Below, piece after piece: positions 9,606 to 14,084 of a stretch of DNA of 18,903 nucleotides. The stretch covers positions 1-18,903 of the forward strand of contig JADFWA010000379.1 of the NCBI GenBank assembly GCA_015222855.1, given 5' to 3'. The DNA is from Pseudomonadota bacterium. GTDB lineage: Bacteria; Desulfobacterota; Syntrophia; Syntrophales; JADFWA01. The position numbers and the translations under genes are program-made. The notes under the pieces are model-generated. The model ran no database searches and was not told the DNA's origin. It was given only the letters and a program-made list of their open reading frames with translations. Every line of letters begins with the position of its first letter. The stretch's first letter is position 1.

Positions 9606-9610
9606 ACTTA

Positions 9611-9676
9611 GAGTTCGGAGTTCTGAGTTCTGAGCTTAAAGCCCCAAACCCGAAACTTTGAACTCTGAACTCCGAA
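9611..9676. repeat. inverted degenerate heptamer array C
   Basis: The left arm is GAGTTCG, GAGTTCT, GAGTTCT, GAGCTTA (9611-9638). The right arm is AACTTTG, AACTCTG, AACTCCG (9654-9674). The 17-base inner arms 9614-9630 and 9660-9676 pair with a single mismatch. It begins five bases after the M20 stop. Confidence 0.8.
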
Positions 9677-9791
9677 GGCGAAGGCTGAAAATCTGTTGCA
9701 ATCCTATATTTACAATGGTAGCATTCCAGTCATATAAAACCCACATGGTCTTTCGGCCGCAACGAAACACGAAAGTATTACAGCGGATTTT

Positions 9792-9839
9792 GTTGGGTTT
9801 CGTCCCTCAACCCAACCTACGAATCTGCGTAATCTGCGG
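9792..9839. repeat. small hairpin plus nonamer direct repeat in the phoH leader
   Basis: GTTGGGTT (9792-9799) and AACCCAAC (9809-9816) form a perfect 8-bp stem with a 9-base loop. Next to it AATCTGCGT and AATCTGCGG (9822-9839) are a direct nonamer pair. Both resemble short intergenic repeats I recall from many bacterial genomes. With array C they fill most of the 262-base spacer before phoH. Confidence 0.6.
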
Positions 9840-9867
9840 ACAACTTTCATATAAAAGGTTAGAATTT

Positions 9868-10854
9868 TTGAAACCACAACCTGAAGACATCTCAGTCAAA
9901 AAGATAAGTTTCCGGGACAATGCTGCAATCAAAGTGCTGATCGGGGAACATGACAGCAATATAAAGCTGATAGAAAAAATAGAAGAGGTAAAGCTTTACG
10001 TCAGGGGAAATGACATTTCAATATCCGGAAATGTCATCGGTGTGGATATTGTTGAAAAACTCCTTGTTCAACTCTATTCCCTCATCAAAAAAGGATACCC
10101 TATCTACAGCACCGATATAGATTATGCCCACAGGATACTTTCCGAAAACAGTTCTACAAACATCGAGGAAATATTTCTCGACACGGTTTTCATCTCATCA
10201 ACGAAGAAGACCATTACGCCGAAGAGCATCGCCCAAAAACTTTATATTGACTCCATAAGAAAGTGTGACATGGTCTTTGGTATTGGTCCTGCAGGAACAG
10301 GAAAGACTTATCTCGCCATGGCCATGGCTGTAGCCATGCTTCTTGAGAAAAAGGTCAACCGGATTATATTGACAAGACCGGCGCTGGAGGCCGGTGAAAA
10401 GCTCGGCTTTCTGCCGGGCGATCTTTCCGAAAAAGTCAATCCTTACCTCAGACCACTGTATGACGCACTCTACGATATGGTGGATTTTGACAAGGCATCA
10501 ACCCTGATAAACAAAGGAATAATCGAGGTAGCTCCCCTTGCCTTTATGAGAGGAAGAACCCTGAACGATTCCTTTATAATTCTCGATGAAGCACAGAATA
10601 CCACTTCGGAACAGATGAAGATGTTCCTGACCAGAATGGGTTTCGGCTCAAAGGCCGTGATAACCGGAGACGTAACCCAGACAGACCTCCCCCCGGACAA
10701 AATATCCGGATTAATCGAAATCGAAAGTATCCTGAAAAAAACGAGTGGTATCAGGTTTGTCTACTTCTCGGGGGTTGACGTGGTGAGACATTCCCTTGTC
10801 CAGGACATCATACGCGCTTATAGCCACCTGGATCGAAGCAGGGGGAGAAAATAA
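9868..10854 (+). CDS. phoH: PhoH-like ATPase (YbeZ type)
   Basis: The 328-residue protein has an N-terminal KH-like region (about 10-70) and then the PhoH P-loop domain. Walker A is GIGPAGTGKT at about 138-147, and the Walker B region is FIILDEAQN at about 236-244. The typical MRGRTLNDSF and GDVTQTDLP motifs are present. YbeZ-type PhoH proteins are cytoplasmic ATPases that act with YbeY in RNA maturation, and ybeY lies downstream here. The frame is open upstream to 9658, but that stretch translates array C and the hairpin, so it is not protein. The first start after the repeats is TTG 9868, with AAAAGG (9853-9858) nine bases before it. The usual phoH-yqfF junction is interrupted by the GxxExxY cassette. 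Confidence 0.9.
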   Translation: MKPQPEDISVKKISFRDNAAIKVLIGEHDSNIKLIEKIEEVKLYVRGNDISISGNVIGVDIVEKLLVQLYSLIKKGYPIYSTDIDYAHRILSENSSTNIEEIFLDTVFISSTKKTITPKSIAQKLYIDSIRKCDMVFGIGPAGTGKTYLAMAMAVAMLLEKKVNRIILTRPALEAGEKLGFLPGDLSEKVNPYLRPLYDALYDMVDFDKASTLINKGIIEVAPLAFMRGRTLNDSFIILDEAQNTTSEQMKMFLTRMGFGSKAVITGDVTQTDLPPDKISGLIEIESILKKTSGIRFVYFSGVDVVRHSLVQDIIRAYSHLDRSRGRK

Positions 10855-10865
10855 AGGCGAATATT

Positions 10866-11319
10866 ACCGCCGAGATCGCTGAGAACGCAGAGATGACACA
10901 AAAATTAAATAAGATTACAGAAGAGATCATTGGTGCAGCGATAGCTGTTCATCGTGAACTCGGTCCCGGCCTTTTGGAATCAGCATATGAAGCATGTTTA
11001 GCCTATGAATTGATTGACCATAGGTTGATGGTGGAACGTCAAAAATCCCTACCCGTGAAATACCGGGGTACAAAGGTAGACTGCGGCTACCGTATAGACC
11101 TTCTGGTGGAAGAAAAAATAATCATAGAATTAAAAGCAGTAGAAAAGCTGGGGGCAATCCATGAGGCTCAACTTTTATCTTATTTGAAATTGTCTAACTG
11201 TAAAGTAGGGTTATTGATCACTTTAATGTTAAAATCCTTAAAAACGGTATACGTAGATTGGTTAATGATTTTAGTGAATAATTGTATATTTTCTCTGCGC
11301 GCTCAGCGTTCTCTGCGGT
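10866..11319. mobile_element. candidate GxxExxY cassette bounded by inverted nonamer arrays
   Basis: The left array is CGCCGAGAT, CGCTGAGAA, CGCAGAGAT (10868-10894). The right array is TTCTCTGCG, CGCTCAGCG, TTCTCTGCG (11291-11317), whose reverse complements are CGCAGAGAA, CGCTGAGCG, CGCAGAGAA. Over 28 bases (10866-10893 against 11292-11319) the ends match at 24 positions. Only the GxxExxY gene lies between them, in an operon whose flanking genes are normally neighbours. There is no transposase, and no convincing target duplication beyond a possible GAAT near both ends. Mobility is inferred. Confidence 0.55.
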
Positions 11320-11321
11320 GA
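10893..11321 (+). CDS. GxxExxY protein, PD-(D/E)XK nuclease-like, C-terminal frameshift
   Basis: The name motif is present at residues 26-32 (GLLESAY), preceded by IIGAAIAVHRELGP. A PD-(D/E)XK-like core follows: Asp69 (YRIDLLV), Glu79-x-Lys81 (IIELKAVE) and Gln93 (HEAQLLSYLKL). The function of the family is not established; a nuclease-like activity is inferred from the core. After GLLI (106-109) the tail becomes atypical (TLMLKSLKTVYVDW) and the last residues are translated repeat. In the next frame 11222-11281 reads FNVKILKNGIRRLVNDFSE and stops, the expected family ending. One missing A at about 11220 explains this. The original gene therefore ended at 11281, ten bases before the right array. 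The putative catalytic residues are upstream of the lesion, so activity may remain. The ATG lies in the last nonamer of the left array. Confidence 0.85.
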   Translation: MTQKLNKITEEIIGAAIAVHRELGPGLLESAYEACLAYELIDHRLMVERQKSLPVKYRGTKVDCGYRIDLLVEEKIIIELKAVEKLGAIHEAQLLSYLKLSNCKVGLLITLMLKSLKTVYVDWLMILVNNCIFSLRAQRSLR

Positions 11322-11332
11322 ATGATCACAAA

Positions 11333-13726
11333 ATGTTTACGAACAAAATATCCACAAAGGCAAAAAATGGGTCGGCTCTAATTGATTTGATCCCTGAATT
11401 TGCCAGAAATGTTCTCTTCCAGAGGTGGACGATCACAATCTCCCTGTGCTTGTTTCTCTCTTTACTCCTTACACCCCATATCCATTTTATGCACCCTACC
11501 TATAAAGTCGGTTCTATCGCAACCAAAGATGTAAGGGCCGACCGTGACTTCCTGGTTGAAGACAGAACATCCACCGAACAGAAAAAGATGAAGGCAATCA
11601 AAAACATAAAGCCTGTATATGATTACGACAGGGATATCCCCTCCATGCTGGGGATGAACATCGCCGGGGCATTTACGTCGATGGAAGAAACATATCGCAA
11701 AATCGACGAAGAGAAGTCTTATGAAGGCAAACAGGCCATTTTAGAAAAAGCAAGAAAAAATTTCGAAGAAACACTGGGAACAACCCTCACAGACAGCGAA
11801 TTTAATATACTCAGCAAGCACAAATTTTCATTAGATGTATGCAATAACATTGTGAAACTGATCTACTCCGTCTACAATGAAGGTCTGATAAGCCAAAGCA
11901 TCTTCTCGAAAAGGGAAAGGGATACCGGTATTATAGTCAGGAATGTAAAGACGCAAAATGAGGAAGAGAAAACAGATCTTTCTTCAATCCTGAAGATAAA
12001 GGAAACAGAGGCATTTTTATCAAAACAGTCAAAGATAGTCCTCGGCAATGAAAAAGCAGAAATTAGGAAAGTTGCGGTCTCTTTAGCAAAAAGACTACTC
12101 CAGCCAAGTCTCACCCTCAATAAAAATGAGACGGAAGAGAGAAAACAGGTCGCTCTGAACAATGTAAAACCTGTCTACTCCAAGGTGCAGAAAAATGAGA
12201 TAATTATTCGTGAAGGAGAAAAGATTACCCCCGCGGATCTGGACAGGCTTGAGACCTTCTTCAAGGTACAGAAAGGAAAAAGATTTTTAAATTGCTCCAT
12301 ATTCCTGGGGATGTTCTTTACGATCATGATTCTCTCCGTCACATTCTATTATTTAGCCCGAAACTGGCTAAAAACCCTTGAAAAATCCAACGTTGACATC
12401 CTGTTTTTAGCGACCGTAGTAATCCTCCAGATACTTTTGGTAAAGGCCGGAATTTTCATATCCGAATCAATAACCCGCTCCTTTGCCTTCATCCATGCTG
12501 ACGCATGTTTCTACGTTATACCTTTTGCAGTGGGCGCCATGCTCGTCACGGTTATTCTCAGCAGGAGTACCGCACTTGTTTTCTCTGTTTTTTCCTCCTA
12601 TCTTGCAACCTTTCTCTTCAGTGAAAGGATGTCCATCTTCCTGTTTTCCTTCCTTGGATGTGTAGTGGCGGTCTACTACATAGTTCGCTGCAAGCAGCGC
12701 ACGGCATTTCTTAAGGCCGGTTTATTCGTGGGCATGATTAACATTGTTGTCATCATCTGCCTGACTCTACTTGCAGGCACCACATTCTCGACAGACACAC
12801 TCATTAAACTCGCCATGGGAATTACCGGTGGTATAATTTCAGGAATAATCGTGGCAGGAATCGCCCCGCTGTTTGAAACCCTCTTCGGTTACACTACTGA
12901 CATAAAGCTTCTTGAACTTGCCAATCTCAATCAACCGATATTCCAACAGATGATTATAAAGGCGCCGGGAACTTATCACCACAGCATAATAGTGGCATCC
13001 ATGGTGGAGGCTGCCGCCGAGGCCATAGCCGCAAATTCGCTCCTGGCCAAGGTAAGCGCTTACTATCACGATATAGGCAAGCTGAAAAACCCCCTTTACT
13101 TCATAGAAAATCAACAGAACGGGGAAAATAAACATGATAAACTCTCACCCAAAATGAGCAGCTTGATCATTATCTCCCATGTCAAAAATGGGTGCGAACT
13201 GGCCAAAAAGTATAAACTGGGGAAAACAATCACGGACATTATAAGACAACATCATGGAGCAAGCCTGGTCAGTTACTTCTGTGAAAAGGCAAAGAAGGAT
13301 AGAAACCCCTCCATCCGGTCAATACCGGAAAGTGATTTCAGATACTCAGGGCCAAAACCTCAGACAAGGGAAGCCGGGCTCGTTTTACTGGGCGATGTAG
13401 TGGAAGCATCATCACGTATGCTGACAAACCCGACACCTTCAAGGATAAAGGCCCTCGTCAGGAAGAGAATTGAACAGGTTCTTGCCGACGGGCAGCTCGA
13501 TGAATGCGCGCTTACGCTGTCCGATCTCAATAAGATTTCTGAGAGTTTCATGAGGATTCTAAACGGCATATTCCATCAGAGGATAGACTATCCCGAACCC
13601 GTAATTAAAGAAGTTGACATCAGAAAAGAGAACAATGGCGGCACTGATAGAAAACAGGCAGAAAAAAATAACGGTAGATCTCAAGCGGGTGCAGCGGGCC
13701 TTGCACGACATACTGGAAAACCTTGA
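11333..13726 (+). CDS. yqfF: 7TM-HD membrane phosphohydrolase (YqfF/PgpH type)
   Basis: The 797-residue protein has one N-terminal membrane helix (about 32-48), a large extracytoplasmic domain (about 55-315), a seven-helix block (about 318-515) and a C-terminal HD domain. Metal-ligand motifs are YHHS (548-551), HDIGK (579-583), His640-His641 and Asp688 (LLGDVVEA). In Firmicutes the family (PgpH) hydrolyses cyclic di-AMP; in this lineage the ligand is not proven. The TTG-started frame from 11282 translates the right nonamer array, so ATG 11333 is chosen; its only Shine-Dalgarno-like sequence, GGTGA, is 11 bases away at the array end. The tail after about residue 755 is low in complexity and overlaps ybeY by 92 bases. 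The usual order phoH-yqfF-ybeY is kept apart from the inserted cassette. Confidence 0.9.
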   Translation: MFTNKISTKAKNGSALIDLIPEFARNVLFQRWTITISLCLFLSLLLTPHIHFMHPTYKVGSIATKDVRADRDFLVEDRTSTEQKKMKAIKNIKPVYDYDRDIPSMLGMNIAGAFTSMEETYRKIDEEKSYEGKQAILEKARKNFEETLGTTLTDSEFNILSKHKFSLDVCNNIVKLIYSVYNEGLISQSIFSKRERDTGIIVRNVKTQNEEEKTDLSSILKIKETEAFLSKQSKIVLGNEKAEIRKVAVSLAKRLLQPSLTLNKNETEERKQVALNNVKPVYSKVQKNEIIIREGEKITPADLDRLETFFKVQKGKRFLNCSIFLGMFFTIMILSVTFYYLARNWLKTLEKSNVDILFLATVVILQILLVKAGIFISESITRSFAFIHADACFYVIPFAVGAMLVTVILSRSTALVFSVFSSYLATFLFSERMSIFLFSFLGCVVAVYYIVRCKQRTAFLKAGLFVGMINIVVIICLTLLAGTTFSTDTLIKLAMGITGGIISGIIVAGIAPLFETLFGYTTDIKLLELANLNQPIFQQMIIKAPGTYHHSIIVASMVEAAAEAIAANSLLAKVSAYYHDIGKLKNPLYFIENQQNGENKHDKLSPKMSSLIIISHVKNGCELAKKYKLGKTITDIIRQHHGASLVSYFCEKAKKDRNPSIRSIPESDFRYSGPKPQTREAGLVLLGDVVEASSRMLTNPTPSRIKALVRKRIEQVLADGQLDECALTLSDLNKISESFMRILNGIFHQRIDYPEPVIKEVDIRKENNGGTDRKQAEKNNGRSQAGAAGLARHTGKP

Positions 13727-14084
13727 CTGCCGGGACAAAGAGATAAGCCTTCTCTTCATCGATGATGACGGCATAAGGGAAATCAACAAGGAATACCTGG
13801 GCAGAGATTATCCCACCAATGTCATCGCATTCTCCATGACGGAGGGTGAATTTGGCGACATCAATCCAGATATGCTTGGTGATATCATCATCTCCGTAGA
13901 AACAGCGCTTAGAAACGCGAAGGACGCCGAAATTGAATTTGAGGAGGAGCTGGATTTCCTCATGATCCACGGCATTCTTCATCTTCTGGGATATGATCAC
14001 GAGACATCCGAAGCGGATGCAAGGCGGATGGAAGAAAAGGAAAGGGAACTGTTTTTCGCGCTGAATAATTATATGATAGAATAA
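13635..14084 (+). CDS. ybeY: endoribonuclease YbeY / rRNA maturation factor
   Basis: The 149-residue product has the family zinc motif HGILHLLGYDH at 112-122 (His112, His116, His122). It also has the conserved DYPTNVIAFSM (58-68) and LGDIIIS (81-87). YbeY is a cytoplasmic metal-dependent endoribonuclease needed for correct 16S rRNA 3' maturation and ribosome quality control, and it often works with the PhoH-like ATPase encoded upstream. The frame opens at TTG 13614, but ATG 13635 gives the usual N terminus (MAALIENRQ) and has AAAAGAG a few bases before it. The start lies inside the end of yqfF, a 92-base overlap, so translation is probably coupled to it. Confidence 0.93.
   Translation: MAALIENRQKKITVDLKRVQRALHDILENLDCRDKEISLLFIDDDGIREINKEYLGRDYPTNVIAFSMTEGEFGDINPDMLGDIIISVETALRNAKDAEIEFEEELDFLMIHGILHLLGYDHETSEADARRMEEKERELFFALNNYMIE

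Follow-up and report, generated by a model that had tools for sequence, protein, structure and literature searches.

The segment at positions 10,866 to 11,319 of the window (the whole 18,903-nt stretch of DNA analysed here, which is contig C297 of a 1.90-Mb draft genome that is 80.6% complete) is probably one copy of a widespread transposon-like cassette, in which the gene of a putative GxxExxY nuclease lies between inverted arrays of short units. Gene and arrays together resemble a mobile cassette that lacks any known transposase. That they form a single unit, as the original prediction had proposed from the letters of the window, is supported by their co-occurrence and by closely related cassettes found at different sites. 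GxxExxY is a common family without an assigned function, and the array packaging, together with the covariation of unit and protein, gives it a testable one, namely array recognition.

The window locus and its insertion site

The window gene scored 145.1 bits with TIGR04256 (cut-off 35) and 138.5 bits with PF13366 (cut-off 22), in both cases above the curated cut-off. These were the only profile matches of the gene, which had none to a known transposase, and a profile search revealed no IS66-type transposase gene in the window element. No Rfam family matched the window at gathering scores. The original prediction had described a single gene inside three nonamers on each side in inverted orientation, with its start in the last left nonamer and its original stop ten bases before the right array, and the analysis agreed on every one of these points (Table 1). 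The two arms are 28 nt each, 86% complementary and 398 nt apart, and the ATG at 10893 overlaps the last left nonamer. Nonamer dimers with at most 2 mismatches were seen 4 times in the window, always at the cassette, against 0.05 expected from shuffles. Within the 142-aa ORF, the Pfam and NCBIfam matches extend to residues 111 and 117, and the remaining C-terminus is encoded in another frame, so that either the window gene carries a frameshift or the draft sequence contains an error at this point. As a consequence of the frameshift, the ORF as read crosses the right array. As read, this copy is frameshifted and probably no longer autonomous. Just outside the right array lies a possible remnant of an outer inverted repeat, whose left counterpart appears by eye to be degenerate in the window copy.

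Table 1. The cassette and its neighbours in the window
Feature	Position	Strand	Basis
phoH, bordering the insertion site on the left (upstream)	9868..10854	+	profile matches
Left array, three nonamers (ACCGCCGAGAT CGCTGAGAA CGCAGAGA) aimed into the gene	10866..10893	+	arm alignment and nonamer scan
GxxExxY (PF13366) gene, PD-(D/E)XK superfamily, probably frameshifted near the C-terminus	10893..11321	+	profile matches, conserved residues of relatives
C-terminal piece of the GxxExxY gene in another frame, family's normal stop at 11279-11281	11222..11281	+	translation FNVKILKNGIRRLVNDFSE, then stop
Right array, three nonamers in inverted orientation	11292..11319	-	arm alignment and nonamer scan
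Possible leftover of an outer inverted repeat like that on sister elements (GTGATCATTC followed by ACC)	11320..11329	-	by eye, weak
yqfF-type 7TMR-HDED/HD gene, bordering the insertion site on the right (downstream)	11330..13726	+	coordinates are those of the search frame
ybeY, next gene of the cluster	13614..14084	+	profile matches

The genes phoH, yqfF and ybeY stand in a row in the window with the GxxExxY gene between the first two, and the segment had been taken for a piece inserted between genes that are normally adjacent. We read the yqfF locus in 17 relative genomes (18 loci), leaving out one genome (G205) with partial matches only. In 16 of the 17, phoH lies directly 5' of yqfF with 14-260 bp between the protein matches, a spacing too short for a GxxExxY gene; on the yqfF locus of the remaining genome, G215, phoH was not found. 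The unit is therefore missing from this place in 16 of 16 readable relatives, which supports an insertion. The search for a base-exact empty site yielded none: the phoH-yqfF gaps of these relatives could not be aligned base by base to the window flanks. A trial in a genus of 5 genomes (g22) returned a sister locus of one cassette that differs by a 1.7-kb segment.

Inspection by eye showed that the phoH-yqfF gap itself holds other inverted arrays in one genome of the same genus (G001) and two of the family (G002 and G003). These gaps (L081, L082 and L098, respectively) each contain a different inverted-array stretch, with units such as CACTTTAGG, CTAAAGTG and GGTTGAAGG/CACGGTTCA. The differing arrays suggest that the gap may be an insertion hotspot or a place of repeated replacement. 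Nested arrays were also seen by eye at three loci (L021 on C354 of G000, L012 and L015), for example an ATTGGTT/AACCAAT-type hairpin inside or beside a CGCAGAG hairpin. Taken with the gap arrays, they hint at hotspot behaviour, and the element may be 'repeat-targeted', as had been proposed.

Upstream of phoH, the window also contains a gene-less inverted array of GAGTTCNGA-type units (9607-9683, between a peptidase gene and phoH), whose arms of 31 nt are 77% complementary and which looks like a hairpin of the heptamer class. It is followed at 9790-9840 by a hairpin-like GTTGGGTTTCG / AACCCAACC stretch and then CTGCGTAATCTGCGGA, which resembles repeats of other genomes.

Array packaging in the family and the unit-protein match

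Four GxxExxY genes are present in the genome of the window, and by eye they carry different unit types: CGCNGAGAN in the window, CGCAAAGNN on C395, CGCYAAGAA on C418 and CGCAGATNN on C164. At the C164 locus both arms lie 5' of the gene, the other flank being only 29 nt long before the contig ends. A first survey found an inverted repeat (SW of at least 16) between the flanks of 32 of 37 GxxExxY loci (permuted 9.4%). Within the host phylum, where GxxExxY is present in 72 of 197 sampled genomes, the same threshold was reached at 94 of 115 usable loci (permuted pairs 6.7%), out of a set of 119 from which three loci with short flanks and one N-masked locus were dropped; 21 of the 115 are without a strong inverted repeat, and some of the strong ones, such as L056, L200 and L162, are not unit arrays by eye. 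A scan of named genomes extended the family to 16 NCBI phyla, two Methanosarcinales archaea included, among the best 80 of 580 confirmed places, and inverted repeats with SW of at least 16 flanked 74 of the 78 usable loci (two had short flanks). Being the best 80 of 580, this set samples one protein clade, and its permuted control is high (22%) because that clade shares one unit; two of its loci, L268 and L297, duplicate L035 and L057 of the host-phylum set. Mechanically called neighbour ORFs, taken as controls, had a flanking inverted repeat with SW of at least 16 in 5 of 72 and 2 of 18 cases. For yqfF, 0 of 15 real pairs reached SW 16, the permuted value of 42% at 16 being high probably because strands were mixed in the permutation.

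Most of the flanking inverted repeats are arrays of short units, usually three, with a 7-nt core and a period of 8-10 nt. Trains of at least three CRCNNAN units that point into the gene were found on the left of 53 and on the right of 65 of the 119 host-phylum loci (both sides 41, either or both 77), compared with 20 left and 14 right for opposite-strand, outward trains, and with 0.2 left and 0 both in shuffles. Counted over the 101 loci with an inverted repeat of at least 14, exactly three units on each side at 8-10 nt occur in 46, and at least two on each side in 65. Spacer lengths are mirrored in 43 of these 46 three-plus-three loci (20% by random pairing), a figure that the alignment from which the arms come favours. 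The 54 loci of class CRCNRAG (the duplicates L268 and L297 included) share a sharp end, TT[CAT]AC-CRCNRAG, and conservation fades about six bases outside it. Together, these results confirm that inverted short-unit arrays flank most other GxxExxY genes, as the original prediction had anticipated, but the units are not generally CGCNGAGAN nonamers. Of the two outcomes named beforehand as speaking against that prediction, namely a gene present at this site, with unrelated flanks, in all close relatives, and a lack of association between other GxxExxY genes and inverted short-unit arrays, neither occurred.

Across unrelated hosts, the sequence of the unit goes with the protein clade and not with the host. 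We placed 199 GxxExxY sequences (L268 and L297 being duplicates) on a tree, distinguished six unit classes and dropped the 57 sequences without a clear class. Over the 142 labelled loci, unit class changes only 7 times, against a mean of 31.6 and a minimum of 27 in 100 shuffles. For host family the same tree needs 88 changes over 119 loci of the own phylum (shuffled 99.0), and for host phylum 30 over 80 named loci (shuffled 46.6). A GYR-type motif (G[YF][RKQ]xD) beside the catalytic Asp coincides with class CRCNRAG at 92 of 92 labelled loci, and 17 of the 19 labelled loci with a GxxxAD motif are not of that class. The remaining labelled loci comprise 2 with TYxPD and 27 with 'other' motifs, and since 13 of the latter are of class CRCNRAG, the GYR motif is not the sole motif of its class. 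The short motif near the catalytic Asp separates the unit classes in part. As far as sequence comparison can tell, the GxxExxY protein is strongly suggested to recognise its own arrays; co-inheritance of gene and arrays as one linked unit would give part of the covariation.

The GxxExxY and D...ExK residues form invariant columns in the family alignment. We modelled an own-genome copy (L003) rather than the frameshifted window copy, and the model (pLDDT 96.8) has PD-(D/E)XK structural neighbours. A sequence search of solved structures gave no convincing relative (best E 0.45), the Cas4 profile matches were weak (E 0.009-0.015), and PADLOC and PHROGs returned weak nuclease/Cas4 matches only; an excerpted report includes one locus with a GxxExxY call where another tool saw cas4. 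In 13 of 14 pairs picked from the nearest loci, dN/dS was 0.03-0.30 (one pair was undefined), which shows that the protein is under purifying selection.

Genes of the four-helix-bundle family PF05635 are packaged in a similar manner. They are bounded by inverted repeats at 29 of 30 own-phylum loci (L317-L346; permuted 6.6%) and, within the family, at 7 of 10 loci (ten of L101-L114; permuted 10% at the same threshold), mostly by heptamer-like arrays of about 7-nt units. These array-bounded genes would form a second element class parallel to GxxExxY. PF05635 genes share the architecture although they encode no nuclease, and what mobilises such cassettes may thus be some enzyme other than the encoded protein. 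Excerpts of one paper (PMC4990558) describe tandem heptamers that precede the S23p ORF of the Coxiella 23S intervening sequence, report that this sequence is excised by RNase III, and recall old proposals of mobility for such sequences.

Copies at other sites and their possible spread

Among four related genomes, the best match to the window element is L035 on C78 of G003, 76% identical from array to array, which by eye lies between the end of an exopolysaccharide-kinase-like gene and another gene. The phoH-yqfF site of G003 is without the window element, and the matches of phoH and yqfF stop near the gene ends. We compared 265 locus pairs that were at least 70% identical and had 500 nt of room. 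In 226 the alignment ends near the gene match (within 150 nt upstream and 200 nt downstream, so that not all 226 reach the arrays), in 27 it continues on each side for over 300 nt, and the other 12 are mixed. Two pairs, each from different places within a single genome, are the cleanest: L164 and L167 of G070 are 95.1% identical, with similarity ending where the right array ends on its outer side, and L171 and L177 of G103 are 83.9% identical, with similarity ending at both arrays. On C3 of G136, three GxxExxY cassettes (L134, L135 and L077) that are 94.6-96.9% identical lie within 3 kb. One pair stays similar beyond the arrays, by about 12 nt on the left and about 26 nt on the right, and in another pair the similarity reaches 197 nt beyond the gene match. 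This trio could represent a recent local burst or a local duplication.

Matches to the array pattern number 49 in G003, 24 in the window's own genome and 19 in G224, with 0 for the reversed pattern. We read 20 copies or half-copies without the gene, 19 of them in G003 and one in G224; 16 keep the gene start behind the left array, 13 the 3' tail before the right array and 10 both. The sample was drawn from matches to the window element, including those to its gene start, and for several copies the reading covered a single side. They look like internal-deletion, MITE-like derivatives that have lost the middle of the gene. Plasmids and phages were considered as vehicles and rejected: relatives of the L003 protein (E 1e-5) occur in 7 of 72,556 plasmid and 0 of 50,697 phage records. 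The plasmid records also gave no match to the DNA around one gene-bearing element, L176.

An outer repeat, GTAACNN[TC]TCA[CG]C, is frequent on copies in G003 and some other genomes. In the cleanest duplication test, restricted to the 14 elements with the outer repeat on both sides, direct repeats of about 8 bp abut it in 3 (permuted 3/182), namely the gene-bearing L176 (8/8) and L037 (7/8) and the gene-less L374 (9/10). Allowing up to one mismatch in GTAAC, the outer repeat stands on both sides of few gene-bearing elements, 3 of 74 in the own phylum (0 at the control position) and 1 of 63 in other phyla (2 at the control position), and it is thus a secondary feature of the cassettes. The 54 class-CRCNRAG loci gave no target duplication beyond a 2-nt signal in a scan spanning 0-8 nt outside the units, and the window copy shows no clear one. 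Across 137 elements we counted 9 direct repeats of at least 8 nt against 1.07 expected, a result inflated by nested arrays, to which five of the nine belong. A mixed test of 33 elements (51 loci less 18 without a usable pair) yielded 3 repeats of 8 nt or more (0.1% when permuted); one of these, beside the gene-bearing L057, is 11 nt long. The outer repeat is close to the TIRs of ISDge4 (ISBst12 group, IS66), GTGACTACTCAGCA / GTAACTGCTCAGCA, which are reported with an 8-bp repeat in an excerpt of PMC12898284.

Reading by eye also revealed L423 (C133 of G000), a unit-less 151-bp copy framed by the outer repeat with an 8/8 duplication. L423, L401 and L426 are small miniature elements that resemble ISBst12/IS66; their ends are of the GTAACTATTCAGC type, their duplications match at 8/8 or 7/8 bp, and array units may be present or absent. 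In G054, at L400, L410 and L415, the GTAAC outer motif by eye precedes heptamer-like arrays (GTAAC CGTTCAC CGTTGAC), and both element classes, GxxExxY and heptamer, may use it.

From these observations we infer that the GxxExxY protein moves the cassette. The protein would bind the arrays at both ends, as DNA, perhaps in the form of an extruded cruciform or a single-strand hairpin, and the nuclease would cut at or beside them, after which repair or replication would copy or relocate any stretch bounded by two inverted arrays. Deleted, gene-less copies would be served in trans. A small subset in the host phylum would have acquired ISBst12/IS66-like outer ends with duplications of about 8 bp, and may use a transposase of that kind instead. 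On a broader reading, which we put forward tentatively and at somewhat less than even odds, GxxExxY would be the founding enzyme of a new class of autonomous mobile elements. As a lone PD-(D/E)XK nuclease it would read, at both ends, an inverted short-unit code specific to its clade, and would spread cassettes as well as their deletion derivatives through bacteria and archaea; the four-helix-bundle/heptamer elements would make up a second class beside it.

The main rival holds that the cassettes are passengers moved in trans by a DDE enzyme of IS66/ISBst12 type or by a Y1/RAYT enzyme that acts on hairpins, while GxxExxY binds the arrays in some other role. It draws on the resemblance of the outer repeat, with its duplications of about 8 bp, to the ISDge4 TIRs (in the excerpt of PMC12898284), on the coincidence of the clearest duplications with this IS66-group-like repeat, on its framing of the unit-less L423 (by eye), and on the Y1_Tnp (PF01797) genes found in 9 of 9 genomes looked at. 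However, the outer repeat marks very few gene-bearing elements, and movement in trans leaves unexplained why the unit follows the GxxExxY clade. We consider this reading unlikely, with something like one chance in a handful; for the subset with outer repeats it is a live rival, for the class less so.

The original prediction suggested a homing-like or repeat-targeted element. In a homing-like one, the nuclease would cut the cassette-free allele and repair would copy the cassette in. PD-(D/E)XK homing nucleases exist, and a lone nuclease-type gene without a transposase fits such an origin, as do, by eye, the different inverted arrays in the phoH-yqfF gap of relatives and the nested arrays. Array copies of one subfamily are nevertheless scattered over many contigs of G003 and of the window's own genome, and their edges share no common target beyond A/T richness. 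This distribution is better explained by transposition-like spread, so the homing part of the prediction is not supported, and we regard homing as improbable. We give still less weight to an immobile origin, in which the arrays would act as RNA hairpins that terminate transcription, protect mRNA or are processed by RNase III, in the manner of 23S rRNA intervening sequences. The inverted arms can form long hairpins, the window copy lies between genes, and the RNase III excision described in excerpts of PMC4990558 is a precedent, but such hairpins would not account for related copies at different sites, deletion derivatives and the absence of the cassette from this site in relatives. Slightest of all is the chance that genes inserted into pre-existing array hairpins and that gene and repeats have separate histories, because, against the excess of array arms over GxxExxY genes in the own genome (36 merged arms, some probably chance, vs 4 genes), the gene-less copies in their selected set mostly retain the gene start (16/20) and tail (13/20), and unit and protein covary.

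Relation to known systems

Array cassettes may be an origin of the dispersed short-repeat families that genome papers list as unexplained, as in the excerpted PMC2996986. If the nuclease drives the movement, the cassette would be mobile without relying on the chemistry of any known transposase, and if GxxExxY is indeed a founding enzyme, with the heptamer class beside it, the two would together explain a large share of the dispersed short-unit repeats in prokaryotic DNA that have so far had no explanation. The array code also offers a natural set of protein-DNA specificity pairs, such as the GYR-type motif with class CRCNRAG. Among the papers listed in our searches of the open-access PMC literature, none linked GxxExxY to repeats.

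Among known systems, REPIN/RAYT, as described in an excerpt of PMC3116915, is like the cassettes in its inverted, hairpin-forming doublets that are dispersed in extragenic DNA, in its single enzyme family and in its many gene-less copies. It differs in that the cassette protein is of PD-(D/E)XK type and not a Y1-type transposase, and in that the cassette ends are arrays of short units with the gene inside. Cas4/Hjc-type PD-(D/E)XK nucleases differ too, since GxxExxY has no solved relative by sequence and matches the Cas4 profile weakly. The 'multicopy nucleotide sequences' of Geobacter bemidjiensis are intergenic palindromic or direct repeats of 6-42 nt with non-random insertion, and the excerpt of PMC2996986 links no gene to them. 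The 23S rRNA intervening sequence with its S23/four-helix-bundle ORF likewise sets a small ORF in an inverted-repeat frame, but it encodes another protein family, and the window copy lies outside any rRNA gene, in the phoH-yqfF gap. Where a homing element has one specific target allele, one cassette subfamily occupies many different sites.

Insertion sequences and MITEs, in particular the IS66 family and its ISBst12 group, share with the cassettes their sharp inverted ends and internally deleted derivatives. The likeness to the ISBst12 group may extend, in a subset of cassettes, to the duplications of about 8 bp and to an outer repeat like that of ISDge4 (excerpt of PMC12898284), whereas the window element has no known transposase and most cassettes have no outer repeat. 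The cassettes have terminal inverted repeats as DNA transposons do, and gene-less copies share both ends with the gene-bearing element (10 of 20), as MITEs do. We would file the cassette as a new variant of small, TIR-bounded mobile DNA, which would become categorically new if the nuclease proves to be its motor.
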